Below are positions 9,251-63,113 of a stretch of DNA of 64,000 nt, piece after piece. The notes under the pieces were generated by a model. That model was not told the DNA's origin and did no database searches. It was given only the letters and a program-made list of their open reading frames with translations. The first letter of the stretch is position 1; every line of letters starts with the position of its first letter. The position numbers and the translations under genes are program-made. This stretch comes from a virus, in the IMG/VR virus record IMGVR_UViG_3300030107_004732, positions 1 to 64,000 of that record; one strand, written 5' to 3'.

Positions 9251-9429
9251 TATTTTAAAATAGCTTTCTTAATTACTTCCTCAACAGAATCATAAACAGC
9301 ATCTAGTATTTTACCTTCTGTCTTTTCTGAAATAAAAGGTATATCTACATTGTCATTTAATTCTTTAACAATTTTTTCTTTCATTTCATCATTAAAAATG
9401 TAATCTACTATCATTTGTTTTATATCCAT
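9250..9429 (-). CDS. Conserved 59-aa tail-cassette protein (copy 1)
   Basis: ATG at 9429 to TAA at 9250, 59 aa, too short for many ORF callers. It is acidic and helical (MDIKQMIVDYIFNDEMKEKI...) and nearly identical to the 59-aa ORF at 62601-62780. Conservation between the two tail cassettes, with only scattered substitutions, supports real coding. It overlaps both neighbours as TAATG. No recognised domain; it could be a chaperone or small virion component for the adjacent large tail protein. Confidence 0.8.
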   Translation of the reverse strand: MDIKQMIVDYIFNDEMKEKIVKELNDNVDIPFISEKTEGKILDAVYDSVEEVIKKAILK

Positions 9430-32094: not shown

Positions 32095-32238
32095 ATGGAC
32101 GCTAGAACTTCATACTTTAGTAATGAAATTAAAGACTTACAGTTTAAGTTTAAATCATTGCGTAATGATCATGAAACACTTAAAAAAGAATATAAAATAC
32201 TACAAAAACAAGTAAAAAAGCTCGAGGAGGGTAAATAA
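32095..32238 (+). CDS. Small coiled-coil protein, 47 aa
   Basis: ATG at 32095 with AAAAGGAGG upstream, TAATGG overlap with the JAMM gene. 47 aa, nearly all a charged coiled coil (FKSLRNDHETLKKEYKILQK). It sits between the E2 candidate and the protease and may be an accessory subunit of the module. Confidence 0.6.
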   Translation: MDARTSYFSNEIKDLQFKFKSLRNDHETLKKEYKILQKQVKKLEEGK

Positions 32239-33209: not shown

Positions 33210-33859
33210 TAAATACTAGAAGCCAAGATATTGCAGATATATCAGGCATTAAGTTTCACATTGTAGGTTGCGGGGCTATTGGAAGCTCCGTAGCCACACA
33301 ATTAGTAAGACTTGGTGGCAATAATTTTGTTTTATATGATTTTGATAAAGTTGAAATACCTAATGTAGGTGTAAGTCAATATAATGAACAAGATGTAGGG
33401 CTATCTAAAGTAGGTGCTCTAACAAATCATATGAAAAAAATTAATGTAATGATTGAAATAGAGGGAATTGTTGATAAATTTAAATATTATCATGGAAATA
33501 AAGATGATATATTAGTATTAGGTTTAGATAGTATGTCTGCTCGTATGGAAATAGTTAAATTGTTAGCAAAATGCCCTTATAAACCATCATTTGTAATAGA
33601 TGGTCGTATGGGTGCAGAACAATATCAACAGTATATATATGATAATATTACTGTTAAACAATATGAAAAAGATTGGTATTCTGATGAAGATTCTGATCCA
33701 GAACCATGCACTCGTAAAGCTACATCTTACTGTAGTAATATGAGTGGAAGTTTTATATCTAATTCTATTAAGAACATAGTTATGAAACAGCCTTACTTTA
33801 AGGAAATAATTTTCAACTTTTCAACATTAATACTTGATAAAAAGAAATTAGTTTCTTAA
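33206..33859 (+). CDS. E1/ThiF-like adenylyltransferase, 217 aa
   Basis: Rossmann-fold E1/ThiF/MoeB superfamily: nucleotide-binding GCGAIG (21-26), acidic D45 after the second strand, 'DKVEIPNVGVSQ' (47-58), K68 in LSKVGA, and the GLD motif (106-108). Near the end 'EPCTRKATSYCSNMSGS' (166-182) gives Cys168 and Cys176 as candidate thioester or active-site cysteines. It is shorter than canonical MoeB, like phage and plasmid ThiF proteins. It would adenylate the C-terminal glycine of the adjacent Ubl. It overlaps the JAMM gene as ATGA and ends at a hairpin-bearing gap. Confidence 0.85.
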   Translation: MINTRSQDIADISGIKFHIVGCGAIGSSVATQLVRLGGNNFVLYDFDKVEIPNVGVSQYNEQDVGLSKVGALTNHMKKINVMIEIEGIVDKFKYYHGNKDDILVLGLDSMSARMEIVKLLAKCPYKPSFVIDGRMGAEQYQQYIYDNITVKQYEKDWYSDEDSDPEPCTRKATSYCSNMSGSFISNSIKNIVMKQPYFKEIIFNFSTLILDKKKLVS

Positions 33860-35471: not shown

Positions 35472-35572
35472 TAGAAATAATACTTATAAGTTTATCAATA
35501 TTTATATTAGCTGTAGGAACTTTAATACTGTTAATAAAAAGTGAAGTGGAGAATATACATGGAGATGATTAA
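35468..35572 (+). CDS. Small membrane protein, 34 aa
   Basis: Starts in ATGA overlap with GGAGG upstream. One hydrophobic segment (IEIILISLSIFILAVGTLIL) then a polar tail. It overlaps the primase-helicase start by 14 nt. Function unknown. Confidence 0.45.
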   Translation: MIEIILISLSIFILAVGTLILLIKSEVENIHGDD

Positions 35573-37322
35573 AGAAATAGCATTTGGAGTTAGTAATAGA
35601 GGTAATTTTCAATCTAAAGATGAAGTTTGTGAGTTACAAGGCACTGACACTGATCTATTTGTGTCTTTATATGACTATGATGAAACAGTTGTAGCATATT
35701 ATAGTAAAAAAGGAAGTTTATCAGGATTTGATGGTAACATATATATGCCTACAGAATTTATATTAGACGTTGATGGATCTAGTATAAGAAATGCTAGAGA
35801 TAAATTAATAGGTTTATCAGATATATTAGATGATTGCAATCTATACTATAGAATATATTTTAGCGGAACAGGTTTTCATGTTGGTATACACAATTCAGCA
35901 TTTAAATGGGAACCAAGTCCTAATTTACACGTAAGAGTAAAAGAAGAGCTAACTAAAGCTGGTATCTATAAATTTGCAGACCCCTCTGTTACTGATAAAA
36001 CAAGAATAATAAGACTAGTTAATACTAAAAATACTAAATCTGGATTATATAAAATCTGTATAGAAGATAACTTACAAATATTATCTTCGTCAGATAAAGT
36101 GTTTAAAGAAGAGCTGATTAAATTAGCATCAGAACCTAGAAACATAGATTACGAAGATATTGAATTGAGTAGCCCAGTATTTGATGTAAGAGATAAAGAA
36201 AAACCTGAAGAAAAACCTGAAATTAAGGTAAGAAATAAGCGTGATCCTGTTGCTAACACTTGTATACAGAAAATGTTAGATGGTGCTCCACACGGTAAAC
36301 GTCATATGGTCGCTCTTAGAATAGCATCTCATTTAAGATGGAACTTTCCAGAAAATATTGTAAGATTAATTATGGAAGATTGGCGCATTAGAGTTAACGA
36401 AGGTGCTAAAAGCGAGTTTAAAAAAGAAGAGATGGATGGTATAGTAGAAGGTTGTTATACTGGTCATGATGGACAAGGTTACAGATATGGTGCTGATGAT
36501 CCAGTTATACAGTTTTATTGTAACTCTAAATGTACGTTACACAGAGGTGCTAAAGCCGAAAACATGATGGATTCAAGTAGTATGGAAGATGAATTAATAA
36601 ACTTTTATGCTCAAGACTTAAAACCACTTAATTTAGGTGAGCCATATGATATGAATTTCCCTATATATCCAGGTGAAACAGTCATTATTCAAGCTCCACC
36701 TGCAAGTATGAAGACTATGTTGCTTCAAAATTGGGTAAATTATTTTAAAAGACCAACATACTTTGTTGAAATGGAAATGTCTCCAAGGCAAATATGGTCT
36801 AGATTTGTTCAGATAGAAATGGGGTGGGATGAAAATCAATTAGCTAATCATTACAAACAAATGAAAAATGGTATGGATAAAAGATTTGAATGGTTAACTG
36901 TAGACTATTCAGCTCCATATGCGCATGAATTAGAAAGAAGAATCACCAGCCTACCTGTTAAGCCAGAAATAGTAATTGTTGACCATTTGGGGCTATTTAA
37001 GAGCAAACAGAAAGATAATAACATGAAAGTTGAGGAAGCTAGCCAAGCAATTATGGAATTAGCTGTAAGACAAAATGTGATCGTCTTTGCTGTAAGCGAA
37101 GTATCTAAAGCTGCCTTTAAAGAAGGTATGGACATATCTTCATCTAGAGGTTCATTTAGAATTGCATATAATGCAAATAAATTAATATCTTTAAAGCCAT
37201 ATAAGAACAAAGAAACAGGTCTTGTTGAGCTTATAGATATTAAATCAGATAAAAACAGAGAGAAAGAACATCTGTACGCTAGATTAACAGTTAATAACGT
37301 AAGAATAGAAAAGGAGGGCTAA
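35559..37322 (+). CDS. Primase-helicase fusion (AEP-like primase + RecA-like helicase)
   Basis: 587 aa from the ATG at 35559 (GTGGAG upstream). The N-terminal ~200 residues carry archaeo-eukaryotic primase-like motifs: DVD (70-72), SGTGFHV (102-108) and TRIIRL (148-153). A middle helical region with Cys pair CNSKC (about 321-325) follows. The C-terminal ~200 residues are a RecA-like ATPase: Walker A APPASMKT (379-386) and Walker B IVIVD (471-475). The Walker A lacks its usual glycines. It would prime and unwind at the fork. No DnaG-type TOPRIM primase or DNA polymerase is present, so the host polymerase or a gene outside the window must finish replication. Confidence 0.75.
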   Translation: MEMIKEIAFGVSNRGNFQSKDEVCELQGTDTDLFVSLYDYDETVVAYYSKKGSLSGFDGNIYMPTEFILDVDGSSIRNARDKLIGLSDILDDCNLYYRIYFSGTGFHVGIHNSAFKWEPSPNLHVRVKEELTKAGIYKFADPSVTDKTRIIRLVNTKNTKSGLYKICIEDNLQILSSSDKVFKEELIKLASEPRNIDYEDIELSSPVFDVRDKEKPEEKPEIKVRNKRDPVANTCIQKMLDGAPHGKRHMVALRIASHLRWNFPENIVRLIMEDWRIRVNEGAKSEFKKEEMDGIVEGCYTGHDGQGYRYGADDPVIQFYCNSKCTLHRGAKAENMMDSSSMEDELINFYAQDLKPLNLGEPYDMNFPIYPGETVIIQAPPASMKTMLLQNWVNYFKRPTYFVEMEMSPRQIWSRFVQIEMGWDENQLANHYKQMKNGMDKRFEWLTVDYSAPYAHELERRITSLPVKPEIVIVDHLGLFKSKQKDNNMKVEEASQAIMELAVRQNVIVFAVSEVSKAAFKEGMDISSSRGSFRIAYNANKLISLKPYKNKETGLVELIDIKSDKNREKEHLYARLTVNNVRIEKEG

Positions 37323-39136: not shown

Positions 39137-41824
39137 CTAAAAGTCTTGTAGAGAAGAAAGTATTTGCAAGAGTTCCTCTTCTGAGTACTTCTTCTCTGCC
39201 TTTGATTTCTTAGTTTCTTTAGGGGTAAAATATGTAGATACAGGTTCTGGCATATATTTCTGAAGAGGCATTAATAAAGCATCTTTATAACCTGAAAGTT
39301 CAGGAGTGCCATATAAACCTAATTCTTGTCCTAATAATGTAGGTACACCAGTACCATTTATAGATCTAGGTACAGTTGAGTAAATAAGTCTTCCAATCTG
39401 AGTATTTAAAGTTCTTACTATTTCTTCAGTAGAGTCAGTATTGTGTCTTTCATGGAATTTGATATAACCATTTGAATAAGTTGTCCATTCAGGTCCACCC
39501 ATTTTCATAAAATTAGTAGCAGTTCCTATTCTTATTATATCACTTACAAAAGGACCACCAAATGTTCCAGTAATAGGATCTAATCCAAAAAAGGCTTTCT
39601 TTTTAGCTTCTTCATCGCCAGTTAAATATTCTCTTAACCTAATACCTCTTTCTAAAGTATCGTTTTGTACTAAATTATTAAAATTAGTATTTGTTAAAGC
39701 AGATAACCCTGTTATAAAAGTATATAACATACCCAATCTATATAATCTCCAAGCTTCAGGACTGTTCCATTCTTTAGCAAGTATATCATTACCACCTTTT
39801 TTAGCTATCTTAGCTTGATAGTTAAAGAAATTAATAGCATAAGTTGAAAACTGACCTAAAACAGAACCTACAGGGCTTTTTGTTATATTTGGTTTAGCAA
39901 ACCTATCATATTGATAGTGAAGCTCTTTAACCATTGCTGCTCCATAATTAGAAGCTTTTTTTATAATTTGCCTTTCTACTTCAGGAGTAATATCCATTTC
40001 TGAATCTTTAGATTTTTTTAAGGTCTTTCTTAATAATTCTTGATTACTTTTTAAATCTCTATATTTAGTCATAAATGCAATCTTAAATGTTAAACCCCTA
40101 TTTATTTTATTTTCAACCCACTGCATAGGTTTACCAGTTATCCTTGCAGTATTTTCCATCCAATCATTTATTTTACTAGCAGCAGTTGGACCTTTTTCTA
40201 TAACTCTACCTTCTGGAGTAACTTCTAAATGTGCCATCAAATCTCTAGGCATAGCAAGTTCTTGTATATTAACAAATTCGAAACCATGTCTTTTCATTTC
40301 ATTGTCAACAATAGTTTTCATAGATTCTGATTGCAAATCTTTCATAGCTGTATATATACCTTTATGACCAAAATATACCCAATTTTGTAAAGACTGGGTA
40401 GCATTTCTGGCAGCAGATCTTATATTTAATCCTAATTTAGACATAAATTGAAATGATGTAATAGCTTGAGAAAAATGAGCAAGTTTACTATCTCTAAATT
40501 TTGTGCCTAAAACAGCCTCATGTGTATCACCTATATAGCCTGCTAAGAACTGTAAATGTTGATCATAATCTTTTCCTTCTAATCTTCCCAACTCTTTTAA
40601 AGCATTAGTAGTTTCTTTTGTAACTCTTGCATTATAATTAAATCTTATAACATTATTTGAAAATGTATCAAGAAGACCTATAACATCTTTATTTTGAAAG
40701 TCAAACCTTCCAGATTTCTTTTCAAACGATAAACTAGGCATATTTAAATTGTCAGCTATATTTTTTATCATAGTACCCATATATCCGCTAACATCTTTAT
40801 AATTTGTATTTACTTTACCAGAAAACATATCTTGACTAAATTTAGCAAATGTAGGAGCTATATCTAATACTTGTGTTGGAAAATAATCTTTAGGTTTTTT
40901 AGGAGGGGGAATTTCTTTACCATTTTTCTTTGTATAACGAAAATAATCATTATATAAATTTTCTAATCTTTTTACCTCAAAACCTACACCATTAAACTCA
41001 TTTTTATGAGATTCTAAAACTTTTATATAATCTAATATACCATTACCTAATACTTTCCATAGTCTATCTTTTAATGGTGCTATATTTTGAGCAGGTTTAC
41101 CATTATGCCAAAGATTAACAGCTTCTACTACTTCAGGTCCATATTTTAATTTTGCTGCATCTAAATCCTGTTTTTTAAACTTACTAGGATCTAGCATCAA
41201 ATCATATAAAGCATTATTAATAGCCATTTGAGATTCAGGATCTACATTTTCAAGCCACTTTTTAGCATAAGCGTCAGCCTCTTCAACTTTGCCATCTTTC
41301 ATTAACTTTTCATGAGTAATTTGGTGTTTTTTTAACTCTTCTTGAACTTTATTTCTACCATAACCATACTTTCTCATAAACCCTGTATCACCCATAGCTC
41401 TGTTTAAAGAGTTTTTTATAATAGCTAAATCACTACCTATAGTTTGTAAATTACCATGATAGTAATTACTAGCTTGAACTAAATTATTAAAGTATTTCTT
41501 AGTAATGGGGTTTTTAGATAAAACATTTTCAGGAAGATTAAACAGTTTACCTAAAGTTGTAGGCTTTTTTTCTAATCCATTTAAAAACTTTGTTACATGC
41601 TTATCTAACTTATTTAACTCTTTAGCGTTTGGAAGTCTACTAAACTCAAAATCTAAATTAGGAAGTATTTCGTTAAATACTCTTTCAAATTCATTAGATC
41701 TACCACCAGTCATAGCTTTTATAATTTTATTATCCATCCATTTATCAACAATACCATTTAATCTATTAGCTCTATCTTGTTCACTAGCTTTGACATTTAA
41801 AGGATTTAAACATTTAACAGCCAT
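39137..41824 (-). CDS. Internal virion protein, 895 aa
   Basis: 895 aa from the ATG at 41824, chosen because GGAGGAAGAG lies directly upstream; a TTG at 41839 would add five residues. Mostly helical. The segment 'KELHYQYDRFAKPNITKSP...SVLGQFSTYAINFFNYQ' (around residues 640-690) matches a pattern I associate with large ejection/internal proteins of podovirus-like phages. A moderately hydrophobic stretch follows (YTFITGLSALTNTNF). It overlaps the 2,992-aa gene by 11 nt. Probably ejected with DNA or part of the inner core. Confidence 0.55.
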   Translation of the reverse strand: MAVKCLNPLNVKASEQDRANRLNGIVDKWMDNKIIKAMTGGRSNEFERVFNEILPNLDFEFSRLPNAKELNKLDKHVTKFLNGLEKKPTTLGKLFNLPENVLSKNPITKKYFNNLVQASNYYHGNLQTIGSDLAIIKNSLNRAMGDTGFMRKYGYGRNKVQEELKKHQITHEKLMKDGKVEEADAYAKKWLENVDPESQMAINNALYDLMLDPSKFKKQDLDAAKLKYGPEVVEAVNLWHNGKPAQNIAPLKDRLWKVLGNGILDYIKVLESHKNEFNGVGFEVKRLENLYNDYFRYTKKNGKEIPPPKKPKDYFPTQVLDIAPTFAKFSQDMFSGKVNTNYKDVSGYMGTMIKNIADNLNMPSLSFEKKSGRFDFQNKDVIGLLDTFSNNVIRFNYNARVTKETTNALKELGRLEGKDYDQHLQFLAGYIGDTHEAVLGTKFRDSKLAHFSQAITSFQFMSKLGLNIRSAARNATQSLQNWVYFGHKGIYTAMKDLQSESMKTIVDNEMKRHGFEFVNIQELAMPRDLMAHLEVTPEGRVIEKGPTAASKINDWMENTARITGKPMQWVENKINRGLTFKIAFMTKYRDLKSNQELLRKTLKKSKDSEMDITPEVERQIIKKASNYGAAMVKELHYQYDRFAKPNITKSPVGSVLGQFSTYAINFFNYQAKIAKKGGNDILAKEWNSPEAWRLYRLGMLYTFITGLSALTNTNFNNLVQNDTLERGIRLREYLTGDEEAKKKAFFGLDPITGTFGGPFVSDIIRIGTATNFMKMGGPEWTTYSNGYIKFHERHNTDSTEEIVRTLNTQIGRLIYSTVPRSINGTGVPTLLGQELGLYGTPELSGYKDALLMPLQKYMPEPVSTYFTPKETKKSKAEKKYSEEELLQILSSLQDF

Positions 41825-44800
41825 CGACTCTTCCTCCAACTTTACTATTTGTTATATTTTTTAATCTTTCAGCTCCGCCTGCAGGTGGATCTACAGGTAA
41901 ATTTTCATATGGTGCTCTTTGAGGAACTTTTCTTGGTCCTCCATAAGTTAAATTTTGTTTAGAAGCATCACCAAGCATAATTTGATAACCATTTTCTACT
42001 GCTTTTAAATAGCTTTGACCACCATTAATAGCTCCATATTTAGTAGCACCAACAAACTCAGGTATATAACCAACAGGCATATAGTGTAAGAAACTAGCTT
42101 TAGCCATTTCAGAAGCAAAACTTGGTAATAAAGGTTGAGAAGACATATAATAAGCTACATTTTTATTAGCATTTTCAAATCCAAATAAAGAAGAAACTCC
42201 AGGATTTATATGTCTTTGTTGAAAACTAGGCGACCAACTTTCAAAACTAAACTGAGCAATATCATCAACTAAAGGAAACCCTCTAAATATATCATGTTTT
42301 GCATTTGCAGCATTTGTCATAGTATTATGAACTATTGTACCTCTTTCACCAGGTAATCCATAAACTGCTCTTAATGAGTTGTTTACATGCCCTGAAAGAT
42401 GTGTAAATATCATGTCTTTTTGAAATTCTGTAATTAATTTAGAATCAGCGCTAGATATAAAGTTTAACCCTAATCTAATCATAGATAAGCTTTCTTTCTT
42501 AAAAGAAGGAGTTAAACGATCATGTAAATATGTAAATTTAAAAGGCTCTACTTCTGGAGACATAAGTTTCCATAATAATAGCTGCCCATATCCACCCTCA
42601 GATTGATATTTAGTATATAATCTTTCTAATCTATCCATAATAACAGTATTAGAACGAGTATTATCCATATACCATTCTTGCCCATTAAAGTTCTTTTTCC
42701 AAGTTTCTCTATAAAACTTTTTAAAATCTTTTACATCTTTCTCAAATTGCTTAGAAAGTTCTTTATTTGTAATATTTTCATTTATAAATATTTTGTTATA
42801 TCTATCAAAAGCATTAAACCATATAAGTCTTTCTATTTGATCTACAGAACTAACACCTTCAACACGAACAACGTTATTTTTTGAAATGTATTTATTTAAA
42901 GCATTATCGTTTCTTTTAGCCCAAGAACTTACTGTTGCATAATCAAAAGAGTCAGGTAAAGGACCTTCAGCCCAACCTTTAGGAGCTTTTCTGTCTTTAA
43001 TCATATCATCAATCAGTTTTCTTTTTGAAGCTTCTCTTATACCTTTAGCCCAAGGAACAGATTGTCCAGAACCTGATAAAACCATTTGCTTTTCTATTTC
43101 TCTTTTTTGATTTTTAAGTTGAAAAATATCCTCAGTTAAATACTCTATATATTGTTTATCACCTTTACCATAAGCATTAAATCTAGCTTTTTGTTGACTT
43201 CTTATTCTATAGTCTAAATAGTTAACGTAATTAAGATATTTGTTATTTTGATTTAATTCTTTCATAAACTCTGAAGCTACTGTACTAAAATCTTCAGAAT
43301 ACATACCTTTTTCACTAAACTTTTTAAATTCAGTAAGCATTTCCCCGCCAATTCTACCAGGGTTTTGAAGTCTCATATTATCATGATAACTAACAACAGA
43401 CATAGCTCTTTCAAATGGAAGTTGATTATCCATCCACTGAGTTGTTGCTTTGTTATCTCTAGCAAAATTTGGCCTTATAGAATTGCCATAATTACCAAAT
43501 ATATTAACAATATTATTTTGGTTATCTCTGAACATTCTATTTACTTCACCCTTATCTTGCTTACTTAGGCCCTTTGTTTTCATTGCTTTCCAATATGCAT
43601 ACTGAGAAAGATTAGCCATTTGATTATCAAAAGTAGTAGTTTGGGTTATTATATCATCATAACTTATTTTTTCTCTTTTACCACTAGAAAATTTACCAGT
43701 TGCTAATCCTAATAAATGTTGATAAGGAGCTATAACTGCTTTAATAACTGCTTTTTCTGCATTAGTAAATGTATGACCTGTATCTTCTGGTAACCATTTA
43801 TTTTTAAATTTACCAGAATCATTATAAATTGCTTTACTAAATATACCGCTATAACCATGCTCACTATCTCCAAACAAAACTCTATCAAACCACATATCAT
43901 TGTATTTTTCAGCATTATAACCTTGTCTAGAATCAGTAATGTTTTGTATATCTGTAGCTAATTTATCTATAGTCTTTTCAATTTTAACAGGATCAACATA
44001 TAACTTTCCACCACCATCAGCATTCCTTAATCTCATAGCGAAACCAGCAAAATCTGATTTTGTTTCTGGATTAAAAACACCACCAGAATTATAATGTTTT
44101 AAAGCATTTAATATCCTAGGAGTTTTAACTATTACCCCTCTTAATCTTTGAGCAGCATAATCACTAGCATAAAACTTATTCATAGAAGAAGCGTCTAAGA
44201 ATGACAGATTTTTAGGTAGACTTGTTTTTTGGTTTACTCCATCAGGATTAACTCTTATAACTCTACCAGATAAAGCATTCCATTCTCTTACAACTTCAGT
44301 AGGAGCATTCCACCAAAAATCTAATTTATCAACATCAAAATCACCTTCATGTCTCATAGCAAAATCATAAGCATTTAATTTGACTTGATTACCGTAATCT
44401 TCAGTAAGTATTTTTTTAACACCTATAGCACTTACATCACCTGGTCTTGTATGTGGGTTTCTTCTAAAGTTTGCCATAACTTGATAATTTTTATTACCTT
44501 CTATCTTTTTTACAACATCAGATAATTTGTCGCCTTTAACAATAGATTCATTACCTGTTTCTTTTATAAATTGCTTTAAATCTATAAGATCATCTTGACC
44601 TTTTGGATTTCTTTTTATAAAATGTAAATTTCCTAAATCAACTTCTTTTTGTCCAGCTCTATATGGTAGTTCAGCTTCACCATAAGTATTTACTTCTCTA
44701 CTTCCATTATCCATTTCTCTAAAAGTAGTATAAAGTAATTTTTCACCTGGACTAACAACTGATTGACCACCTAATTCAGTTTTCATACTTAGTATACCAG

Positions 44801-47800
44801 GTTTATCAATAAGATTAGATTTTAATTGATTTCTAAATTGATTAGCAAATGTTGATATTTGAGGTAATCCATTATTTTTAATCCATCTATTATAAGAAGA
44901 AGCATTATCTTGGACTTTCATATTTTCCATTAAATACTTACTATAAGCCAATCCATCAACTAAATTGTTAGAATCAAACTTTTTGTCAGACTCTTTAATT
45001 AAATTCTCTAAACTTCCCCTTAAAAGCCAATTAAACGCCTTATTTGATGCAGATCCACTTAAATGGTTTAATGCAGAATGAGATATTGTGGCGCTGTGGT
45101 CAGCGTTTACTATAGAGCCAATAGAAATATCTTCACCTTTAAGCAACTCTAAATGAGCTTCTCTAAAATCTTTTATTTTTTTACTACTACCTTTTAAATT
45201 AAGGTTGATTAAATCATCAAAAGTTTCCCAATCTTCAAATATTTTTTCTCTATTTTTTATTTTTGTTGCGCTTTCAAACATTACAGCATCAAGACCATTC
45301 TTTTTTAACATAGGATTTAATCTAGGGTCTGCTATAAATGCTGTTTTACCTATAATAACATTATTTCCAACTCTATGTACAATAGGTTTTATTCCGCCTA
45401 AACCAGGAGTATTTGCTGCTCCTGCTAAAGCGTAAAGACCTTGCATAGCTTCTGTACTAACCGCCATATAAGAATCATATTTACTTACTTCTCCGCCACC
45501 TGCCCAAGTTCTTCCACCTTCACCAAATTCATTAACAATTTTACTATCATATTTAAGTTCTGAATCAATTTGCTCTTTTAATTCTTGAAGTATATTAGCG
45601 CTTCTACCTTTTTTTAATTCTCCATTTTTAAACATTTCGTCAGCAACAACAATAATTTCTAGCCCACCATTCTTTTTGATTCTTTCTAAACCTTTCATCA
45701 TTTCAGGGTTTTGTTTTTTACTTATATTGTGGTTGTTATAAAACTCAAATGTTTCTTTTATATAATCAGTAGACATTTCTTTCATAGCAGTATTAGCTAA
45801 AAGTCTTAATCTACCAGCATATTTAGCCGTGGCTTCTGCTCCCTCTGTTTTCATATGTTCCCAAAAATTCTTACCCATATTTTTGTCCATAAACATAAAT
45901 GTAAACATAGTTTGTAATCTTTCAGACTGAATTGTAGCATCAGGTAAATCCCATTCATATTCAAATTTACCAGTTCCCTCATTTTTTTCATTTAAGATTT
46001 CTTTTTTAGATTTAGTAGACGATTTTAATAGCCCCTCTAAAGATTCAAAAACACTATTAGGTACATCAGGATTATCTTTTTTCCATTTTTCTAACTTTTT
46101 CTCAAACTTTTCAAGAATCTTAGGAATATTTTCTCTTTTAACACCTATTCCCCAAGAAAGATCAGCAAGTCTAATCATAATATGACCGCCTGTATTTTCA
46201 TGAGCGAGAACACCCCATTCATCTGTTCTAAGATTTTTGTCTATACTAGTTTTAGATAAGGCAACACGATTAATGATTTCGTTCATCATATTAGCATTAT
46301 CACGAGCATTTATAAGTTTGTTATTTTTTCCCGCAACAACCATATCAACTATAGAGAAAGAATCTTTTCCAAAAATATCTATTATTTCTCTAAATACATG
46401 GTTATCCATAACTGTATGTCTAAAATCAGTATGGACACCGTATCCTTCTGATACAGATAATCTATGAACATTTATTTGGCTTCTTGAACCTAAAATTAAT
46501 TGTTGAACATCATTCATCAACTCAAATTGTTGGTTGCTATCCATATCTTCAAACTTTAATTCTTTATTATTTTTATCATAAAGTATAGCATCATTTATAA
46601 GCTGTTCTCTAGTAGTGTTTTTTGTAAACTCATAATCTTTTTCCAAGCCATATTTTTGTTTAAATGCATCTCTTGTCACAGATTGATACATGTCAATATC
46701 AGAAGCTTTACCCATAGCGCTTCTATAATAATTTACTTGAGATTCTAAATTAGCAATTTCTACGCCTTGTGCTATATCAAATTTTGCCTTATCATAAATT
46801 TCTTGCATATCTTTTTTAAGATTTTTATTCAAAGGATCAAGAGCCAATTCATCTTTAACTATATCATAATAACCTTTTTTTCTTAAAGCTTCTATAATTT
46901 CATTAGAATTAACTGATTTATTTCCATACATCTGATATATATAGTGTATCATTTCTCTTGTTTCTGAGTCAAATTTAGAATTGTTTTTTATAGCCCCTAA
47001 TTGCTTTAAGAAATTATCATGAAGCATATTATTCATATCTTTTCTGACAGCTGTTAATTGACTTATCATTTCATGCAATTGAGAAGGTGTAACAGAAGCT
47101 ACAGTAGATGTAGTTTTTATAAAACCTGTCTGTTTCCCATCTTTCATTTGAACTAAATAGGGACTAATTAAATCTTTGTAATTTCTAAATAACTCAGCAG
47201 CTAAAAATTGTTTTTCAATACCCAATTCAACAGATAGTTGTTCAAATAGTTTATCCATAGTTGGCTCTTTATCAAAGATAGTATCTATTACTACTCTCCA
47301 GCCCTTACCCATTTTATTTTTACTATTTAAATCTAATTTTTTTAAGTCTATATTATTTACTTTAGATGACATTTGATTTATAACGCCAATTAATTCAACC
47401 ATATCCATATTAGGAGTTAACATTTTAAAATCCAAAAGCTTAGATAAAACTTTTCTATCAGTAGAGTTTAATATACTTCCATCTCTTTTTGTTGCTCCTT
47501 TAAAGAATTGATCCATAGCTCTTTCTTGATAAATAGCTTTGAACATATTAGATTCTGTCATATCTCCAGTGCTAAACATAGTTTCCATACCATTGTTTCT
47601 AAACACTCTTCTTAACTCTTTAATATCTCTTATTTGTTCTTGAGTAAATTTAACTTTAGAACCTGTATTATCTAATATTCTTTGTTCATAATTAGGATCT
47701 GTTCTTAATATAGATAATAAACTATTTACAAATCTTGCTTCTGCCCCTGATAAACCTTTTGTGCTAAATTCAGAAATTAAAACACTATCATTGCCTATAA

Positions 47801-50792
47801 ATATTTTACCAATTAAATCTTTAGCAACAATACCATCATGCTTACCAGAAAAATCTCCCCATAAAGGACTTTCTAAATCAGTCATTTTGTTATGAATCTG
47901 CCTTACTCCTCTATAGAAATTCTGATGAATAATTAAATCCATCAAATACCCTTCTTCCATTAAACCATAAGCTCTTCCAACTTCAGGGCCTTGTCTAGTA
48001 CCATTAATTAATTCATCTATTTTAGTATCAAAAGATTCAACTTTTTCTTTTAATCCTTCAAAATCTTTGTTTTTAACTTGTAAAGGTTTAGGGTGTCTTT
48101 CATTATATTTTAATTGCCTTCCATTTAAAGTCTTTACAATTCTGTTGTATTTGTCTAATATTATTCTATTAGAATCAGTAAGAGGCTCACCAGCCTGTAT
48201 TTTGATTGGTAAAAAATCAGGTAACAATTGTTTTCCTGAAGCAGTTTTTCCAGGCTCTTGAAGCATTCTATCGTAATTACCACCTAAGTGATTGTAAATT
48301 TCACTAGCAGCTAAAACGTGATGATTTACAACATCTTTCATAGCTGAATCAGCAGCATCAAATATTATATCATCTAAATGATTAGGGTTTCTTATTCCGC
48401 CTGTTGCCGCTTTAAAATTTGTTTCTGCTAATTTCGCTTCTAAAGCTTTTACTTCTTTTACGGTAAGTTCTGTTGCTCCACGCATTCTTTCACCGCTTCC
48501 AGACAAATAGCCATCAAATATCTGTTGAACTGAATCATACAAAGGATGTTCACCTTCTGCAGGACCCTTTTTGTTAGTTTTAATAGCAGAGCCATCGTCT
48601 TTTACTACCAAACCTTGATCTCTTAATATTTTAACAAGACCTTGAACATCTTCATTCATTTCTAAGTTTCTTAAATGCTTTCTTTCTAAGATTCCAGCAT
48701 TATATAAAGCTTGAGCATTATATATTTTAGGATTAACGCCTAATAAATCTAAATAAGTATTAGCATCTATAAAGTCTTTACCTACATCTTTATGTCTTTC
48801 AGCAAAAAACGTTGAAACTTTTCCATCTTTAGAAACATAATCAACTCTTTTCCCTTGTTTTGTCATAAATGCACCTAACATAAAATTAAAAACTTTATCT
48901 TCTAATGGTACATTGTCATCAAAAACCACCTCATAATTAAACACCATTGATCCTGCTAACATTCTTGGTGTTGAGCCAATTAAGTCAGAAGTAGCTTCTT
49001 TAAAAAATTCATTCTTCCACCTAGCGCCCCAATTCTTTTCTAGGTTACTTAAAGCTGATTTTATCTTTTCAGCACCAGCTTTTGTTTGCCCTAATACTTT
49101 AATATCATCTAATGTTGTAAAAGTATCATCGCTCCATTTACTTTTATTTCCTACCTTTTTAAATAAAGATCTAGCCATAGTAACTAATTGATCTCTTTGT
49201 TTTTGAGTATCCGTTAAATAAGTAGAATAAGGTTGATGTTTTTTAGAAGCATTTTGCCAACCCTTAAGTATAGACCTTCCTATTTTAAAATCTTGCCCAT
49301 CTGGCATCTTTAAACCACCAGGAATCATCTTTGCTGCACCTAATGCATTACCTAATAAGAAAGCATGTTTCCATCTTCCTGTAAAATCAAACTCTCTTTC
49401 TTGGTCTAGCGCCTGAAAAAATTCCATAGGTGTTTCTACCATAGCAAACAATAAACCTTCTTCAATAGTATGTGAAGCTATAGTAGCTATTCTTCCAGCT
49501 CCTGGAGTTCCACCTAAAGCAATTGCAATTCTTTGCTGTAAATTAGTAATAGGTTGAACAGATTTATTGCTTAAACCTAACGCTTTATCTACAATATTTT
49601 TAATTTGAGCTATATTTTGATCAGTATCTCTTAAGCCGTATTTTTTTAATTGCTCTCTTATAACTCTGTTACTATTTTCATTCCAGCCTTTTATAAATAA
49701 GTCTTTACCTTTTTTACTAGCAATACTTTGAGCAATTGCTGTCATACCTTGTGAAGATGATACTCCTTCTCCATACAAGAAGTCCATAAATTTGTTCTGT
49801 TCTTTTAAAGGTAAATTTTGAAACTTTTTATAACCTTGTGCTTTTACGCCTGCTTGTTTTCCTAAAAATTCTGCACCTTCTTGAGCAACTTTTTTAGCAA
49901 CAGCATTAGCTCCATACTTACTTAATCCTTTTATTCCTGCAGTAACTGCTGCTTTAGTGCCTCCAAAAGGTACTAAAAATCCAGCAAAACCACCAAGTCC
50001 AGCACCTACTCTACCTGCAAATGTTTCTGGCATATACTCACCAGGTTTGTCGCCATATTCTTTACCAAACACAGCTTCATCTACATCTAAATAATCTAAT
50101 AATCCAAAGGTTGATAAGTCAGCAGCGTTCCAAAGAAAATTACCTACAAAATCAGCAGCAGAACTTCTAGGTTCTGTATATCCAGCTGGTTTATATCTAG
50201 AAGCAATATCAGAAATAGCACTTAAACTAGACTGTAAATCTGAAGTAGGGGCAACTTGAGGCATATTATTTGTGTAATCGCTAATAGCTCTAGAAATATC
50301 TCCACCATAATTTCTTACAACTTGTGGATCTGAACTTCCAGAATATTCTTGAGCAAACGCTTCGCCAAATCCATTATCATTAGGTCTTAATCCAGTTTTT
50401 TTAACAACATTATTGATTACTTGATTAGTTATGAATATTGAAGCTTTTTCACCTTGTTCAAAAGTATCATATTTAGCTGTCCAATATTGACCAGATCCAC
50501 CCTCTCTATTAGGCCCAACAAAAGATTCTCCCTTTTTTGCTCCAAAATTTTCTTCAAGCTCTGGAGTCCAAATATGTCCACCTGGGTTATTATGAGATTG
50601 AGAACGTGTGCTGTCTTTATATTCCCATTTTTGTATAACATTAAAAATCTCTCCACCTAAATCACTTTGCATTATAGGTTGAGTATATCGTTTATCTTCT
50701 TGCACAGACATATAATCTAGTATCTGCTGATCAGACCAGTTTATACCTCTTTTTGCAAGACTTTCTTTGAATAGTTGAAAATCTGCGGACAT
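41814..50792 (-). CDS. Giant internal virion protein, 2,992 aa, possible RNA polymerase
   Basis: One uninterrupted 2,992-codon frame. Residues ~48-135 resemble phage lytic domains (KWEYKDS with E57, HNNPGG at 67-72, then KYDTFEQGEKA), suggesting peptidoglycan cleavage on entry. Further on are 'GLDAVMFESATK' (about 1836) and 'MKTELGGQSVVSPGEKL' (about 2005). Then 'FRRNPHTRPGDVSAIGV' leads within about 45 residues to GDFDVDKLDFWW, with D2151, D2153 and D2155. An R-x-P, later N-x-V-x-L-N, then DxDxD order is that of double-psi beta-barrel RNA polymerases, including the virion RNAP of crAss-like phages. Polymerase activity is inferred, not shown. The remainder is helical. Confidence 0.6.
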   Translation of the reverse strand: MSADFQLFKESLAKRGINWSDQQILDYMSVQEDKRYTQPIMQSDLGGEIFNVIQKWEYKDSTRSQSHNNPGGHIWTPELEENFGAKKGESFVGPNREGGSGQYWTAKYDTFEQGEKASIFITNQVINNVVKKTGLRPNDNGFGEAFAQEYSGSSDPQVVRNYGGDISRAISDYTNNMPQVAPTSDLQSSLSAISDIASRYKPAGYTEPRSSAADFVGNFLWNAADLSTFGLLDYLDVDEAVFGKEYGDKPGEYMPETFAGRVGAGLGGFAGFLVPFGGTKAAVTAGIKGLSKYGANAVAKKVAQEGAEFLGKQAGVKAQGYKKFQNLPLKEQNKFMDFLYGEGVSSSQGMTAIAQSIASKKGKDLFIKGWNENSNRVIREQLKKYGLRDTDQNIAQIKNIVDKALGLSNKSVQPITNLQQRIAIALGGTPGAGRIATIASHTIEEGLLFAMVETPMEFFQALDQEREFDFTGRWKHAFLLGNALGAAKMIPGGLKMPDGQDFKIGRSILKGWQNASKKHQPYSTYLTDTQKQRDQLVTMARSLFKKVGNKSKWSDDTFTTLDDIKVLGQTKAGAEKIKSALSNLEKNWGARWKNEFFKEATSDLIGSTPRMLAGSMVFNYEVVFDDNVPLEDKVFNFMLGAFMTKQGKRVDYVSKDGKVSTFFAERHKDVGKDFIDANTYLDLLGVNPKIYNAQALYNAGILERKHLRNLEMNEDVQGLVKILRDQGLVVKDDGSAIKTNKKGPAEGEHPLYDSVQQIFDGYLSGSGERMRGATELTVKEVKALEAKLAETNFKAATGGIRNPNHLDDIIFDAADSAMKDVVNHHVLAASEIYNHLGGNYDRMLQEPGKTASGKQLLPDFLPIKIQAGEPLTDSNRIILDKYNRIVKTLNGRQLKYNERHPKPLQVKNKDFEGLKEKVESFDTKIDELINGTRQGPEVGRAYGLMEEGYLMDLIIHQNFYRGVRQIHNKMTDLESPLWGDFSGKHDGIVAKDLIGKIFIGNDSVLISEFSTKGLSGAEARFVNSLLSILRTDPNYEQRILDNTGSKVKFTQEQIRDIKELRRVFRNNGMETMFSTGDMTESNMFKAIYQERAMDQFFKGATKRDGSILNSTDRKVLSKLLDFKMLTPNMDMVELIGVINQMSSKVNNIDLKKLDLNSKNKMGKGWRVVIDTIFDKEPTMDKLFEQLSVELGIEKQFLAAELFRNYKDLISPYLVQMKDGKQTGFIKTTSTVASVTPSQLHEMISQLTAVRKDMNNMLHDNFLKQLGAIKNNSKFDSETREMIHYIYQMYGNKSVNSNEIIEALRKKGYYDIVKDELALDPLNKNLKKDMQEIYDKAKFDIAQGVEIANLESQVNYYRSAMGKASDIDMYQSVTRDAFKQKYGLEKDYEFTKNTTREQLINDAILYDKNNKELKFEDMDSNQQFELMNDVQQLILGSRSQINVHRLSVSEGYGVHTDFRHTVMDNHVFREIIDIFGKDSFSIVDMVVAGKNNKLINARDNANMMNEIINRVALSKTSIDKNLRTDEWGVLAHENTGGHIMIRLADLSWGIGVKRENIPKILEKFEKKLEKWKKDNPDVPNSVFESLEGLLKSSTKSKKEILNEKNEGTGKFEYEWDLPDATIQSERLQTMFTFMFMDKNMGKNFWEHMKTEGAEATAKYAGRLRLLANTAMKEMSTDYIKETFEFYNNHNISKKQNPEMMKGLERIKKNGGLEIIVVADEMFKNGELKKGRSANILQELKEQIDSELKYDSKIVNEFGEGGRTWAGGGEVSKYDSYMAVSTEAMQGLYALAGAANTPGLGGIKPIVHRVGNNVIIGKTAFIADPRLNPMLKKNGLDAVMFESATKIKNREKIFEDWETFDDLINLNLKGSSKKIKDFREAHLELLKGEDISIGSIVNADHSATISHSALNHLSGSASNKAFNWLLRGSLENLIKESDKKFDSNNLVDGLAYSKYLMENMKVQDNASSYNRWIKNNGLPQISTFANQFRNQLKSNLIDKPGILSMKTELGGQSVVSPGEKLLYTTFREMDNGSREVNTYGEAELPYRAGQKEVDLGNLHFIKRNPKGQDDLIDLKQFIKETGNESIVKGDKLSDVVKKIEGNKNYQVMANFRRNPHTRPGDVSAIGVKKILTEDYGNQVKLNAYDFAMRHEGDFDVDKLDFWWNAPTEVVREWNALSGRVIRVNPDGVNQKTSLPKNLSFLDASSMNKFYASDYAAQRLRGVIVKTPRILNALKHYNSGGVFNPETKSDFAGFAMRLRNADGGGKLYVDPVKIEKTIDKLATDIQNITDSRQGYNAEKYNDMWFDRVLFGDSEHGYSGIFSKAIYNDSGKFKNKWLPEDTGHTFTNAEKAVIKAVIAPYQHLLGLATGKFSSGKREKISYDDIITQTTTFDNQMANLSQYAYWKAMKTKGLSKQDKGEVNRMFRDNQNNIVNIFGNYGNSIRPNFARDNKATTQWMDNQLPFERAMSVVSYHDNMRLQNPGRIGGEMLTEFKKFSEKGMYSEDFSTVASEFMKELNQNNKYLNYVNYLDYRIRSQQKARFNAYGKGDKQYIEYLTEDIFQLKNQKREIEKQMVLSGSGQSVPWAKGIREASKRKLIDDMIKDRKAPKGWAEGPLPDSFDYATVSSWAKRNDNALNKYISKNNVVRVEGVSSVDQIERLIWFNAFDRYNKIFINENITNKELSKQFEKDVKDFKKFYRETWKKNFNGQEWYMDNTRSNTVIMDRLERLYTKYQSEGGYGQLLLWKLMSPEVEPFKFTYLHDRLTPSFKKESLSMIRLGLNFISSADSKLITEFQKDMIFTHLSGHVNNSLRAVYGLPGERGTIVHNTMTNAANAKHDIFRGFPLVDDIAQFSFESWSPSFQQRHINPGVSSLFGFENANKNVAYYMSSQPLLPSFASEMAKASFLHYMPVGYIPEFVGATKYGAINGGQSYLKAVENGYQIMLGDASKQNLTYGGPRKVPQRAPYENLPVDPPAGGAERLKNITNSKVGGRVDGC

Positions 50793-52649
50793 TTATCCCT
50801 CTAATATTTTTTGTATATCTAACTTTTTAGCCAGCACTTCGCCTTGCTTTGCTCTAGCTTGATTTATAGATTCAATCCATTGATTGTATTCTTCAAAAGC
50901 TTTTCTTACTTTAGGAATTTCACTTGCTACACCAGAAGCGCCTTGTGGAAATAGTTGTGCTAAAAGACCAACCATTGGAATGTATTCTAAAAAACTATTA
51001 GGAACATTAGGATTTAATCTTCTAGCCTGCATTTTTATAAACCTTTCAGATATTCTTTCTAATTCTGTGTCAGTAGGAATATAATTATGTGGTCGACTAC
51101 CTGCTATACCTTTTACAGCATTATCTCCCCAAGGAAAAGGAGTACCTTGACCAAAATTAGCGGCAGCAAACTTATCTAACCCCCGTCTAACTTCTTCTTT
51201 AAGAGCTCTATCTTCATCTATTAAAGCATCTCTTTCAGCTACTTCTGTTTCTAGCTGTCCAAGTCCTTCCATAATCGAATCAACATTTAATGCTTTAGGA
51301 TCGGTTTCAGTATTTTCTTCTTGTGAAATTCTTAGATGTTCTAACCAAGCTTCATATGCAGGATTGGTTTCATTATTAAAATCTATAAATCTTTGTCCTT
51401 CTCTATCTATAAACTCTAAACTATCGTTAATAGCGTTATACCCAAAACCTTCAGCTAATAAAGCTTCTGCATTATTTGCATTTATCGTACCCAAAGAAGA
51501 TATTACATTATCTTTTGCCGCATCTATACCAGTTGCAAGTTCTAGTAAATCTATATCGTAATTACCCCCCATATCTCTAGCTAAAACACCTGCTTGTTGA
51601 TATTGTGTTACTCTATTATGTAATCCAGCATAAATTGGATCTCCCACCCATTGACCATCTTCATCAACTAAAGAAGGATCAAATACTGTTAAATATTGTT
51701 TTAAATCACCATAAGCAGAAGATAATAAAGAAACAAATCCATCATAAGGGCCAGCTACTCCATCAATAGTATCTCTTTCAATGTAGTTAGCTATTCCAGA
51801 ACCTAATGCTGTAGATATATCTGGAAAATTAGTTTGTATTGCAATATTTAAATTATTCCATTCTTCAGTAGCAACATCTACTTGATCTTTATCGCCTTTT
51901 AAATTATTTTTTATTACTGCTAATTTAGAGAAAATAGGTGAAGAATTTGTCACTTGAGCAATAATACTAGGACCTAAGTCCATTGTAGCTATATTAATCT
52001 CTTTAGTTGCTCTTTCTAAATCTAAGTTTGCTAAATGTATATGACTTTCTTTTAATTTAGCTGCAGCCCCAGCTCTGTTTAAAGCAAATTCATAAGTATT
52101 AAAAGTATCAAAACCTTCAATAAATCCTGGCATATTAGCCAAATTAGGATCAACTCCTAGCTGTTCAAAACTTTGAAACAATTTAGTTTTTTCATCTTCG
52201 CTATATCTAAAAGGATTTACACCTGTTTCTCCTTTAGTAAATGCACCAACATCTGTAATGCCATCACCATCAATATCTGCACCTGCAGCATAAGTTTCAG
52301 CTATTCTTTGACCTGTAGCAAAAGAGCTTTTAACATTACTTAAATTATTTAAGTTTACTGAAGATTGAGCATAAAGTGCATTTAAAGTATCAAGCAAAGG
52401 TTGATTTCCTGCGCTATTTACTATATCTACATAATTACTGCTTCTATATTCTTCAGGTAAATTTACGCCAGCATCTAACAGTTGATTTCTGTATTCATTT
52501 TCAAGATTCATTTGATTTTGAAATAAAGAAGCAACTATTTGTTGTTTTTGCATTAAATCATTTTCTTTTCTTTGAAAATAATGATCAAAAACTTTATTGC
52601 TTAAACTATCTAAGGCTTCCCCTATTGCTTGTTTAGCTGCTGCGCTCAT
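50793..52649 (-). CDS. Internal virion protein, 618 aa, with EF-hand-like loop
   Basis: 618 aa, Ala/Asn/Gln/Leu-rich and helical, ending directly at the start of the giant gene. A calcium-loop-like segment DIDGDGITDVGAF lies at about residues 124-136. A hydrophobic region near the C-terminus (IPMVGLLAQLF) may insert in a membrane. Size and place (between small virion proteins and giant proteins) fit a podoviral ejection protein. Family not recognised. Confidence 0.55.
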   Translation of the reverse strand: MSAAAKQAIGEALDSLSNKVFDHYFQRKENDLMQKQQIVASLFQNQMNLENEYRNQLLDAGVNLPEEYRSSNYVDIVNSAGNQPLLDTLNALYAQSSVNLNNLSNVKSSFATGQRIAETYAAGADIDGDGITDVGAFTKGETGVNPFRYSEDEKTKLFQSFEQLGVDPNLANMPGFIEGFDTFNTYEFALNRAGAAAKLKESHIHLANLDLERATKEINIATMDLGPSIIAQVTNSSPIFSKLAVIKNNLKGDKDQVDVATEEWNNLNIAIQTNFPDISTALGSGIANYIERDTIDGVAGPYDGFVSLLSSAYGDLKQYLTVFDPSLVDEDGQWVGDPIYAGLHNRVTQYQQAGVLARDMGGNYDIDLLELATGIDAAKDNVISSLGTINANNAEALLAEGFGYNAINDSLEFIDREGQRFIDFNNETNPAYEAWLEHLRISQEENTETDPKALNVDSIMEGLGQLETEVAERDALIDEDRALKEEVRRGLDKFAAANFGQGTPFPWGDNAVKGIAGSRPHNYIPTDTELERISERFIKMQARRLNPNVPNSFLEYIPMVGLLAQLFPQGASGVASEIPKVRKAFEEYNQWIESINQARAKQGEVLAKKLDIQKILEG

Positions 52650-54818: not shown

Positions 54819-57800
54819 TTATCCTGAATCTGCGTTTCCAGTTGGATTACTTAATGAATACCAATTTGTTCCATTACAATAAAGTGTATATCCACCATAA
54901 CCTACAACTCTTTCATCAGACCCTGTTGTTAAAAAAATCTTTTGATGTGTTCCTACTGCAGGACTTTCATTGTGTTCTAATTGTATAAAGTTTGTAGTAT
55001 CTGTTTTAACTATATATAAAATCTGTCCTGCTACACCACCACTAAATCCACCTATAGTTACATTATTACTTGAAGTATCTACTTCTAATACTGTAGTATC
55101 TGATACATCAATACTATCTGTAGGCCCTGCAGTACTAAATACAGTATGTTTATACGACACAGTACCTTCTACGTCAAGTGTAGTAGTAGGAGCAGTAAGA
55201 CCTATACCTATTTTACCATTAGAATCTATATTTAAATTTCCTGCGTGTGTTGTGTTATTAGCACCTAATGATAAAGTTGAGTTATTTGATACTATATGAT
55301 TAGTAGTATCATCATCTTGTATTTGTATTCTTGCTGTACTATCTGAACTTTTAAATATTGCTACTGTATCAGATGTACTTGAATCAACGTGTAATTTTAC
55401 TGAAGGACTTGTAGTACCTATACCTACATTACCTGCATTTATAAAGTTATCTGTTCCATCTGTATATAAGGATACTTTTAAAGTACCACCATCATACATA
55501 TGTAATCTACCACCATCAGTAGACTTTTCGCCAATCTGTACAACAGGATTTGTATTAGAATTATCCATAAGAGTAAATCCACTATTGGCTGAACTTGTGC
55601 TATTAGATTTAATAGTTAATGGAGCAACAGTAGTTGTAGTACCTATACCTACATTACCATCAACGTGTAAATATCCATTTGCTTGTATATTACCTGAACT
55701 ATCTAATGTAGAACCTGAAGAACCATATCCACCCCCTACATTTAAATATGTGCCAGTTATATTAGTAATACCACTAACATCTAATCTTCCTGACATTTTT
55801 ACTTTTTCAGAAGAGTTTGTAGTTACTATTTCTAGTATTCCAGCTTTACCAGAAGAATCAAATGATAAAGCACTTGCATTATTATCTGTTAAATCAATAT
55901 CAATAGCAGCATTAGTTAAATCTATATCACCATCATTTCTAAAACCCCCTTGGATTTGAACAGTACCAGTCATAGTAACATCATCTAAATTAGATGTTCC
56001 ATCAATATCAATGTCTCCACTAAAATCACCATCTACTGCTTTTACATTACCATCTACATGAAGTGTTTCAGTAGGATTAGTAAGTCCAATACCTACATTT
56101 TGTGTTGAATGAGCAATAACTAAAGCTGGAGTATGACTATCAGATACGTCTTCAATTCCCCAGTAACTTGCAGGTATATTTGAATTTGTTGAACTTCCTC
56201 CGCCTACTCCTGCTCTCCAACTATAGGATGTACCTCTTTGGTATCTTATAGTACCACCATAACTAGCGTGACCTTCAACCAATATAGCTTCACCATCAGC
56301 ATTGTCTCCATCTAAATGAAGAAGATGAGTAGGACTTGTTGTGCCTATACCAACCGTTCCATCTGTATTTAACGTAACTAAACTATCGGTTCCACCAGCA
56401 CCAAAGTACAATTTTTTTGTTGAAGCTGCCTTGAGATACATATGTCCAGCACTTGTAATGTTTGTGTTATCTCCTCCATTAAAATTAAGTTCTGTAGCAG
56501 AATCACTTGTAATGTTTATACCACTACCTGATAAGTTTAATTTACCTGCATTTATAGTTGCGTCTGAAGGATTATAAGTAAAGTTACCATCTGATTCTAA
56601 ACCTAAATTACCACCATCTGTATCTGCACCTGCTGCAAATATAATAGCATTGTTTTCATCTGTGCTTTCATTATCTGTAATAGTTACTGTTGTAGCTATT
56701 GCTGCTGTACCTGTAGTGTCTTGGTTAAGAGTGGCTACATATGAAGCTCCTATTGCAGTTCCTTGCCAAACTCCTGTACTTATTGTACCTACGCTTGTAA
56801 GTGAAGAATTAAGTACACCACTACCTAATGTAGTAGCACTTAATACTGAACTTGCATTTATTTTATAACTATGTCCTGTTGGTATATTGACATCTCCATA
56901 TCCATCTGCATTTCTATCCCAATCAGTAGTCCATGGTCCTGTATTTCTATCACTTACATAGGTATTTAGTATACCAATATTTTTAATATTAACTCTATCG
57001 TTACCACCTGCAGAGGCATCCCAAGCAGGAAATTCTATTGTTATTCTAACGTGAGTATCATTACTGTGAACACCGCTATTTTTATAATACATTAAAAGAC
57101 CCCATTGGTCTGATATTCCTGTAGTATGCCAATCTGTTGAAAAAGGTGTATGTGTAGTCCAATCGTTAGCACTATCATCACTATCATTAAAAGTTCCATC
57201 AAGCATTTCTACAGTCATAGTAGGACACATAGAGCCACCTGCAGAACTACCAGATGAATATGATGTAGAAGACCAAGTTGTGTCTACATAAAAGCATTGG
57301 TCGTCTGCCCAAGTAGATTCTCTTTCTATAACAAATCTAAATTTTCTCCACTCATCATCTAACTGCCAAGCAGTATTTCTTTCTCCATCTAATGTATTTT
57401 TAAGTCCTGTTAAATTAGTAGTAGGATTATTTTCACTTGTTGTTCCTGATATAGCATCTACCCAAGCACTGCCATTCCATCTTTCTAATGTTAATGGTGT
57501 TTGATGTCTAATTAAATCTTGATGTGATGTTCTTAACATATGTGTTAAGCCCATTTTACCAAAACTACCAAAATATCCATGGTCATTTTCCATTTCAAGA
57601 CCACCAACAGGCATATTCATTCTACCGTTATCACCTATTTTTAATCTAAAAGTAGTTTGATTACTGTCGGCTATAGTAAGGCATTTATCACCTACATCAA
57701 GGTCAAGTATATTATTACTTGCATTATCTCTCCAGCCAAAATTAATATCTGCATCTGATGTTTTCCAGACAAAAGTATTTCCTGTTAAACCTACTTCAGT

Positions 57801-62908: not shown

Positions 62909-63113
62909 TTTTACCTCCTTTTGTTTTACAGTTACACTTAAAATTTTTAGGTGGATGTGCCATTTTTTCTAATAAATTAAGGCGTTTATCCATATCTTTA
63001 ACTTTATCGTCTAACTCATTATCATCAAATACATAAGCCATCATTTTGTCTAATTTAAAATGTTTAGTCAATCTGCTAGCTACTGCATTTATTATCATTT
63101 TAGAAACTATCAT
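62901..63113 (-). CDS. Small helical protein, 70 aa
   Basis: 70 aa, in ATGA overlap with the metallophosphoesterase stop. The first ~50 residues match the 83-aa ORF of cassette 1 (MIVSKMIINAVA...VFDDNELD). The C-terminus contains CNCK within a basic end. In cassette 1 the holin-like and 47-aa genes lie between the phosphoesterase and this gene; here they are missing. Confidence 0.65.
   Translation of the reverse strand: MIVSKMIINAVASRLTKHFKLDKMMAYVFDDNELDDKVKDMDKRLNLLEKMAHPPKNFKCNCKTKGGKNA

Follow-up and report, generated by a model that had tools for sequence, protein, structure and literature searches.

A predicted two-barrel RNA polymerase core in a giant protein of an uncultured phage and its distant relationship to crAss-like virion polymerases

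In an uncultured phage, presumably short-tailed, a giant protein of 2,992 aa contains what profile comparison and structural modelling indicate is a two-barrel RNA polymerase (RNAP) core distantly related to the virion RNAP of crAss-like phages, because an aspartate triad is kept in 23/23 family members, the family profile matches that of crAss-like RNAPs and the modelled core matches PDB entry 6VR4 and QDE-1. We give a probability of about 0.8 to the reading that this protein is a two-barrel RNAP which is packaged, ejected and used to transcribe early genes. The open reading frame, its conservation, the profile homology, the predicted fold and the gene order come directly from computation, while catalysis, type of template, late expression, ejection and early transcription are assigned by analogy; virion packaging is likely, judging from the position of the gene and from precedent. 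The gene (41814-50792, minus strand) lies in the window, i.e. the whole stretch of 64,000 nucleotides that was analysed (positions 1 to 64,000 of IMG/VR record IMGVR_UViG_3300030107_004732), and reads from an ATG start with zero internal stops. The motif GDFDVDKLD occupies G2150 to D2158, its DFDVD part (44328-44342, minus strand) carrying D2151, D2153 and D2155, the predicted Mg2+ ligands; these aspartates, as well as the FRRNPHTRPGDVSAIG and GNQVKLN stretches upstream of them, stand in the translation exactly where the sequence-only reading had placed them.

Relatives of the protein were found on 22 further viral contigs, making a family of 23 contigs with the window. It comprises 20 uncut giant ORFs (2,773-3,116 aa, measured between stops), two that are cut at the 5' end (L072 and L090) and one that is in pieces (L032, L003, L073; L003 was omitted from the motif-centred sets). 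Conservation of the aspartates had been set out beforehand as decisive for the polymerase claim, and all three are kept in every one of the 23 homologues, as they are in 18/18 relatives retrieved by motif-free searches, a count that leaves out L050-L053, whose search patterns could include the motif. A scan with the neighbouring 900-aa partner gene alone (39137-41839, minus strand), which overlaps the 3' end of the RNAP gene, returned 25 loci; L003, which was already known, and L086 (849 bases) were left out, and in 20 of the 23 loci examined a giant ORF lies directly upstream, L076, L092 and L096 being without an upstream gene. DxDxD is present in all 20 of these ORFs, of which ten come from contigs not retrieved before (over the stretch shown, L084 and L088 are almost the same). 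The partner is a conserved neighbour: 12/12 further members that were compared have a homologue of it, at E 3e-22 or below. It gave no detectable match to phi14:2 gp076 or crAss001 gp49, crAss001 gp49 and DAC15_62 being cut fragments in this comparison.

Identity to the window protein ranges from 16 to 77% in the set without the ten last contigs. Among 12 near-full members 51 of the 2,992 positions were counted as invariant, and these include the three aspartates, R2111, P2113, K1802, K1816, S1841 and K1844. In the whole family R2111-x-P2113 (44454-44462, minus strand) is invariant in 23/23, K1802 is kept in 23/23 and K1816 in 22/23 (45345-45389, minus strand). The second barrel (DPBB-B) of two-barrel RNAPs is described in PMC7824862 as contributing two basic residues, and we propose K1802 and K1816 as a candidate catalytic basic pair of that barrel. 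Motif variants occur in the family (GDYDIDT, ADFDVDA and DMDGD), hence the aspartates are kept while their neighbours change. The DMDGD form, found in L090 (ORF 1-9372), is close to the DFDGD form of Thermus phage P23-45 gp96. The strong divergence outside a few positions, with 16-18% identity between the window protein and L050-L053, could be taken as a sign of a decayed, inactive polymerase that is retained as a structural or ejection protein; yet the catalytic residues that one would expect are among those that resist change, and even L090 with its DMDGD retains all three aspartates, making such decay very improbable.

The general libraries are silent on the protein. Searched at full length it gave nothing significant in Pfam (best E 0.075), zero matches up to E 0.1 in PHROGs, just two weak matches to PDB sequences by phmmer (E 0.28 and 0.53) and none at E 0.01 among 50,697 phage records by tblastn, and a profile search of PDB sequences returned three weak, irrelevant matches and missed 6VR4. 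The solved phi14:2 gp66 is likewise without a Pfam or PHROG match, and therefore we do not count this silence against the RNAP assignment. In the genome collection 595 stretches fitted one of two short patterns and 0 were confirmed as relatives, so that this search, limited to those two patterns, provides no prophage or host clue.

A more sensitive comparison was made with a profile of seven crAss-type RNAPs (phi14:2, crAss001, cr55_1, cr50_1, cr118_1, DAC15 and Fpv1), from records picked by similarity to gp66 and cut into pieces centred on their own DxDxD; seven of nine loci entered the profile, LMMB and crAss002 having given no motif-matching ORF. In hhalign the 13-member family profile matched it with a score of 77.6 over 295 columns and E 2e-7, a value that refers to one comparison. 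Masking of the motif left the register of the alignment unchanged (score 59.9, E 2.3e-5), whereas the best of 60 column shuffles reached 26.0 in full and 23.9 masked, and the reversed profile 17.5. A smaller family set of nine gave E 1.3e-8 against the same crAss-type profile; with a motif-selected crAss-type set the value went from E 9.5e-10 for the smaller family to 2.9e-5, over 74 columns, for the enlarged one. The part upstream of the catalytic barrel (DPBB-A) gave no more than a weak match when aligned alone (probability 12%, E 0.0024), in the area of the F.SA.K block (residues 1839-1844; 45261-45278, minus strand), which is in register with crAss-like RNAPs; cr50_1 and cr118_1 have the same layout, KP...K...F(D/E)SAVKVG. 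Therefore the resemblance to crAss-like RNAPs that had been suspected from the motif is borne out as homology at the level of sequence profiles.

Sequence homology is confined to the ~300 residues from the end of DPBB-B through DxDxD. No homology was found between the N-terminal 1,450 residues and phi14:2 gp078 or gp077 1-900, nor between the C-terminal part and the C-termini of crAss RNAPs, and outside the family no relatives were detected either for the C-terminal part or for the ~1,400 residues of the long N-terminal one. P23-45 gp96 and gp64, compared with the family as single sequences, gave hhalign scores within noise (20.0 and 18.2).

We also asked what the bare DNA pattern for GDFDVDK[LF] retrieves from the viral collection. 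It returned 38 stretches: 33 carry ORFs, 578-4,122 aa long, with BLASTP matches to phi14:2 gp66 at E 5e-6 or below, many of these ORFs being truncated where the stretch ends and some matching briefly and near the motif only; three belong to the window protein's own family (L017, L030, L032); and the remaining two, L015 and L044, are short, unrelated ORFs. The occurrence of gp66-type giant ORFs, of up to 4,122 aa, on 33 viral contigs (within L009-L046) makes single-chain two-barrel RNAPs look common in uncultured phages.

For the structure, residues 1655-2345 (43758-45830, minus strand) were modelled with AlphaFold2 without templates from 14 sequences, with mean pLDDT 66.9 and pTM 0.61. The double-psi barrel core expected by the sequence-only reading is present in this model. 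Foldseek against the PDB placed 6VR4 first (E 6e-8, probability 1.00), followed by nine QDE-1 chains. In VIA-align the core matched QDE-1 with Z 16.2 over 317 residues (rmsd 6.0), in an alignment running from model residue 12 to 534 and spanning both barrels, maize RDR2 with Z 14.8, the gp64/gp62 entries 8f72 and 8f5m with Z 11.1 and P23-45 gp96 (8h2m) with Z 10.4; 6VR4, though first in Foldseek, is not among the best 50 VIA-align matches listed. The catalytic, beta-prime-like barrel is assigned to residues 2001-2186 (DPBB-A; 44235-44792, minus strand) from structural matches to RPB1-type chains, which reach Z ~10 over model residues 347-532, the part that holds the aspartate triad. Residues 1671-1898 (45099-45782, minus strand) are the candidate beta-like barrel, DPBB-B; they align to 6VR4 residues 903-1105 with Z 7.7 (133 aligned, rmsd 3.6), a match that is weak when taken alone. 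The predicted long helix that follows DPBB-A (residues 2268-2286; 43935-43991, minus strand), with a conserved Q2283 and D2287 adjacent to it, is a candidate bridge helix. An earlier, longer model (residues 1431-2580, 10 sequences) had a pLDDT of 49.6; its leading Foldseek matches were RNA polymerase entries, but its best VIA-align matches, with Z 8-9, were unrelated proteins of helical structure. The confidence of the core model is moderate, and folds like that of the core may have been in the training of AlphaFold2. A search of viral models gave as first match A0A516L9L2, 100% identical over 690 columns, which means that this protein sequence was already public; other matches include crAss-like phage proteins.

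These comparisons bear on two further readings. One is that the motif arose by chance in a large structural protein, as the want of a significant family-library match for the full protein could suggest; conservation, the masked-profile match and the fold match all speak against it, gp66 is equally without Pfam or PHROG match, and the profile comparison with its shuffles together with the Foldseek match to 6VR4 lead us to regard a chance motif as refuted, at a probability close to nil. The other is a two-barrel polymerase of a different template or product, either an RNA-dependent RNA polymerase like QDE-1 or a DNA polymerase built on a PolD-like core. The best structural matches do include QDE-1 and plant RDR2, but the first Foldseek match and the profile match are both to crAss-like DNA-dependent RNAPs, and a tailed dsDNA phage would need early transcription and not RNA copying; hence we hold this reading to be improbable. 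A DNA-dependent RNAP is preferred, in which residues ~1671-1898 would form the beta-like barrel with its two conserved lysines and residues ~2001-2186 the beta-prime-like barrel, whose D2151, D2153 and D2155 would hold the catalytic Mg2+.

The closest known system is phi14:2 gp66 (GenBank gp077, PDB 6VR4), which is, like the window protein, a single chain with two barrels encoded in the structural block. The motif reads GSDFDIDK in gp66 and GDFDVDK in the window protein, and both have an upstream K...K...(S/D).(A/G).K block. Nevertheless, gp66, the first structural match of the window core, is only ~11% identical to it in the structural alignment; it has 2,180 aa against 2,992, with N- and C-terminal homology undetected, and phi14:2 has a crassvirus capsid whereas the window phage has an SU10-type capsid gene. 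A structural protein of Flavobacterium phage Fpv1, whose record is not placed in Crassvirales, is a relative of gp66 by tblastn, so gp66-type RNAPs are not confined to Crassvirales; the Fpv1 protein is recognisable by BLAST as a gp66 relative and the window protein is not. QDE-1 and RDR2 share the single-chain two-barrel core (Z 16.2 and 14.8, as above) but are eukaryotic cellular enzymes of RNA silencing and not virion proteins, unlike the RNAP proposed here. P23-45 gp96, a virion RNAP fused to a tape measure, resembles the window protein in having a two-barrel core within a giant virion protein, and the entries that gave Z 11.1 to the window core are titled P32 gp64 (8f72) and P74 gp62 (8f5m). 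According to PMC10770324, the RNAP is N-terminal in gp96, whereas in the window protein it is far from the N-terminus, and P23-45 is long-tailed, unlike the window phage. The virion RNAPs of N4 type (Schitoviridae) are of similar size (3,398 aa for DEV vRNAP, PMC10925440) and have a role like that inferred here, and the terminases of N4-like and ICP2-like podoviruses resemble that of the window (~24% identity); the N4 enzyme, however, is of the T7 palm-fold class and not two-barrel (PMC7824862). The fold matches listed for the window core are two-barrel enzymes, and PHROG and Pfam gave no RNAP match for the protein.

The remaining genes help to define the phage. The strand of the RNAP gene also carries a tail-fibre-like gene, an SU10-type capsid (E 5e-20), a P22-type portal (E 6e-59) and the large terminase (E 3e-68). 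SU10_MCP was the sole Pfam family that the capsid protein matched up to E 0.01, and the Crassvirus major capsid (PF23898) was absent from it, while phi14:2 as positive control matched Crass_capsid at 8e-200. Portal and capsid agree with the description of the genome as podovirus-like, at the level of genes and not of morphology. The opposite strand has Erf-like annealing protein, primase-helicase, SSB-like and RusA-like genes, a block that we take as the early genes. No promoter-like repeated word stood out in this block, where no word of 10, 12 or 14 bases exceeded the top word of 20 resampled sequences. A 593-aa protein (35541-37322, plus strand) has a primase match in its N-terminal half and a DnaB-like helicase match in its C-terminal half. 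A JAB-like protein below the Pfam cut-off (32238-33209, plus strand) adjoins a ThiF/E1-like one (33206-33859, plus strand; E 5e-19), possibly as a ubiquitin-like deconjugation and activation pair; crAss001 likewise has a ThiF beside a metalloprotease. That no T7-type RNAP is encoded, another claim made from the sequence, holds for the 39 of the 62 window ORFs that were searched, none of which matched an RNA polymerase-named PHROGs family, many of the 39 having no match or matches of unknown function. A search of the record for PF00940 was empty, but its control gave no signal either. In phiA008, which was taken for its portal, the large ORFs showed no D[FYLI]DxD.

The 85,245-base record itself appears to be composite. 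Its bases 1-92 recur unchanged at 55336-55427, copies of many ORFs of 1-38 kb are found, at 28-97% identity, in 54.8-85.2 kb (1-38000 versus 54800-85245), and the six longest relative contigs measure 51.7-57.3 kb. The simplest reading is a circularly permuted genome of ~55.3 kb to which the assembly attached ~30 kb from another, related phage, and therefore head genes occur twice in the record; a natural duplication is possible instead. Metallophosphoesterase-like proteins (PHROG 221) are found in the structural block of each unit (10121-10906 and 63110-63889, both minus strand), and the structural block of phi14:2 also has one. The RNAP gene is not a product of the assembly, since it falls within the first unit and a relative of 77% identity matches it over the full length. 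In L002 the sizes of the genes around the RNAP gene follow the same order as in the window. A 618-aa gene (50793-52649, minus strand) abuts the RNAP start codon, and relatives have a gene at the same position; among 10 tested, BLASTP matched its product to the L002 counterpart only (58%).

Gene context also weighs on whether the RNAP travels in the virion. The phi14:2 RNAP gene and those around it carry a structural annotation based on MS/MS, and the RNAP-associated gp47, gp49 and gp50 of crAss001 were detected in virions (PMC10172136). The enzyme could instead be a two-barrel RNAP that is left unpackaged and made during infection for middle or late genes, like P23-45 gp64. Such a course would sit well with the P23-45 two-barrel RNAP not having been detected in virions, as stated in PMC10770324, and packaging of the window RNAP is something that we infer; the gene nevertheless lies on the virion-gene strand, adjoining tail-side genes and a conserved partner as in phi14:2, and the 20 uncut members have 2,773-3,116 aa where the compact gp64 has 639 aa from stop to stop. 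We thus consider an unpackaged RNAP unlikely, although the least improbable of the rival readings. According to the preferred reading, of a packaged enzyme, the RNAP would be made late, alongside the virion proteins, packaged in the virion, perhaps with the 900-aa partner, and ejected into the host together with the DNA, where it would transcribe the early genes ahead of any phage protein synthesis.

The N-terminal region was less informative. The segment with NNPGG (residues 44-175; 50268-50663, minus strand) had been called lytic-like; it has no database match and NNPGG occurs in just two of 11 members with a complete N-terminus, so this part of the sequence-only reading was not confirmed. 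A Gly-rich hydrophobic segment (residues 258-300; 49893-50021, minus strand) may be a membrane or ejection segment, and 17/22 members have a comparable N-terminal stretch that ranks within their three most hydrophobic windows; this fits a possible ejection role and proves nothing. It is tempting to speculate, as a tentative and rather doubtful extension, on a separate clade of two-barrel virion RNAPs, represented by the 23 contigs, in SU10/P22-headed phages, fused behind an ejection-type N-terminal region; the polymerase, together with the 900-aa partner, would remain close to the channel of entry and could assist in drawing the genome into the cell by transcription. If so, a polymerase fused to a giant virion protein would be a recurrent solution (crAss-like phages, P23-45 and the window clade), and N4 would represent the same solution with another fold.

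No description of this RNAP family was found in the literature searched, which covered freely available articles without their supplements, the 23 RNAP families of PMC10770324 entering as text rather than as alignments; we call the family new in the sense of absent from that literature. Its members are so divergent that standard libraries miss the window RNAP, as they do gp66. Two-barrel virion RNAPs would thereby reach beyond crAss-like phages and their BLAST-recognisable relatives, to uncultured phages with a different head. Whether phage two-barrel RNAPs come from cells or from ancient single-chain enzymes is an open question raised in PMC10770324, on which a deep set of single-chain RNAPs bears. 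Since the giant protein has a crAss-related RNAP core, the phage probably supplies the cell that it enters with a transcription apparatus of its own, and the window RNAP would give these uncultured phages a concrete mechanism of early transcription.
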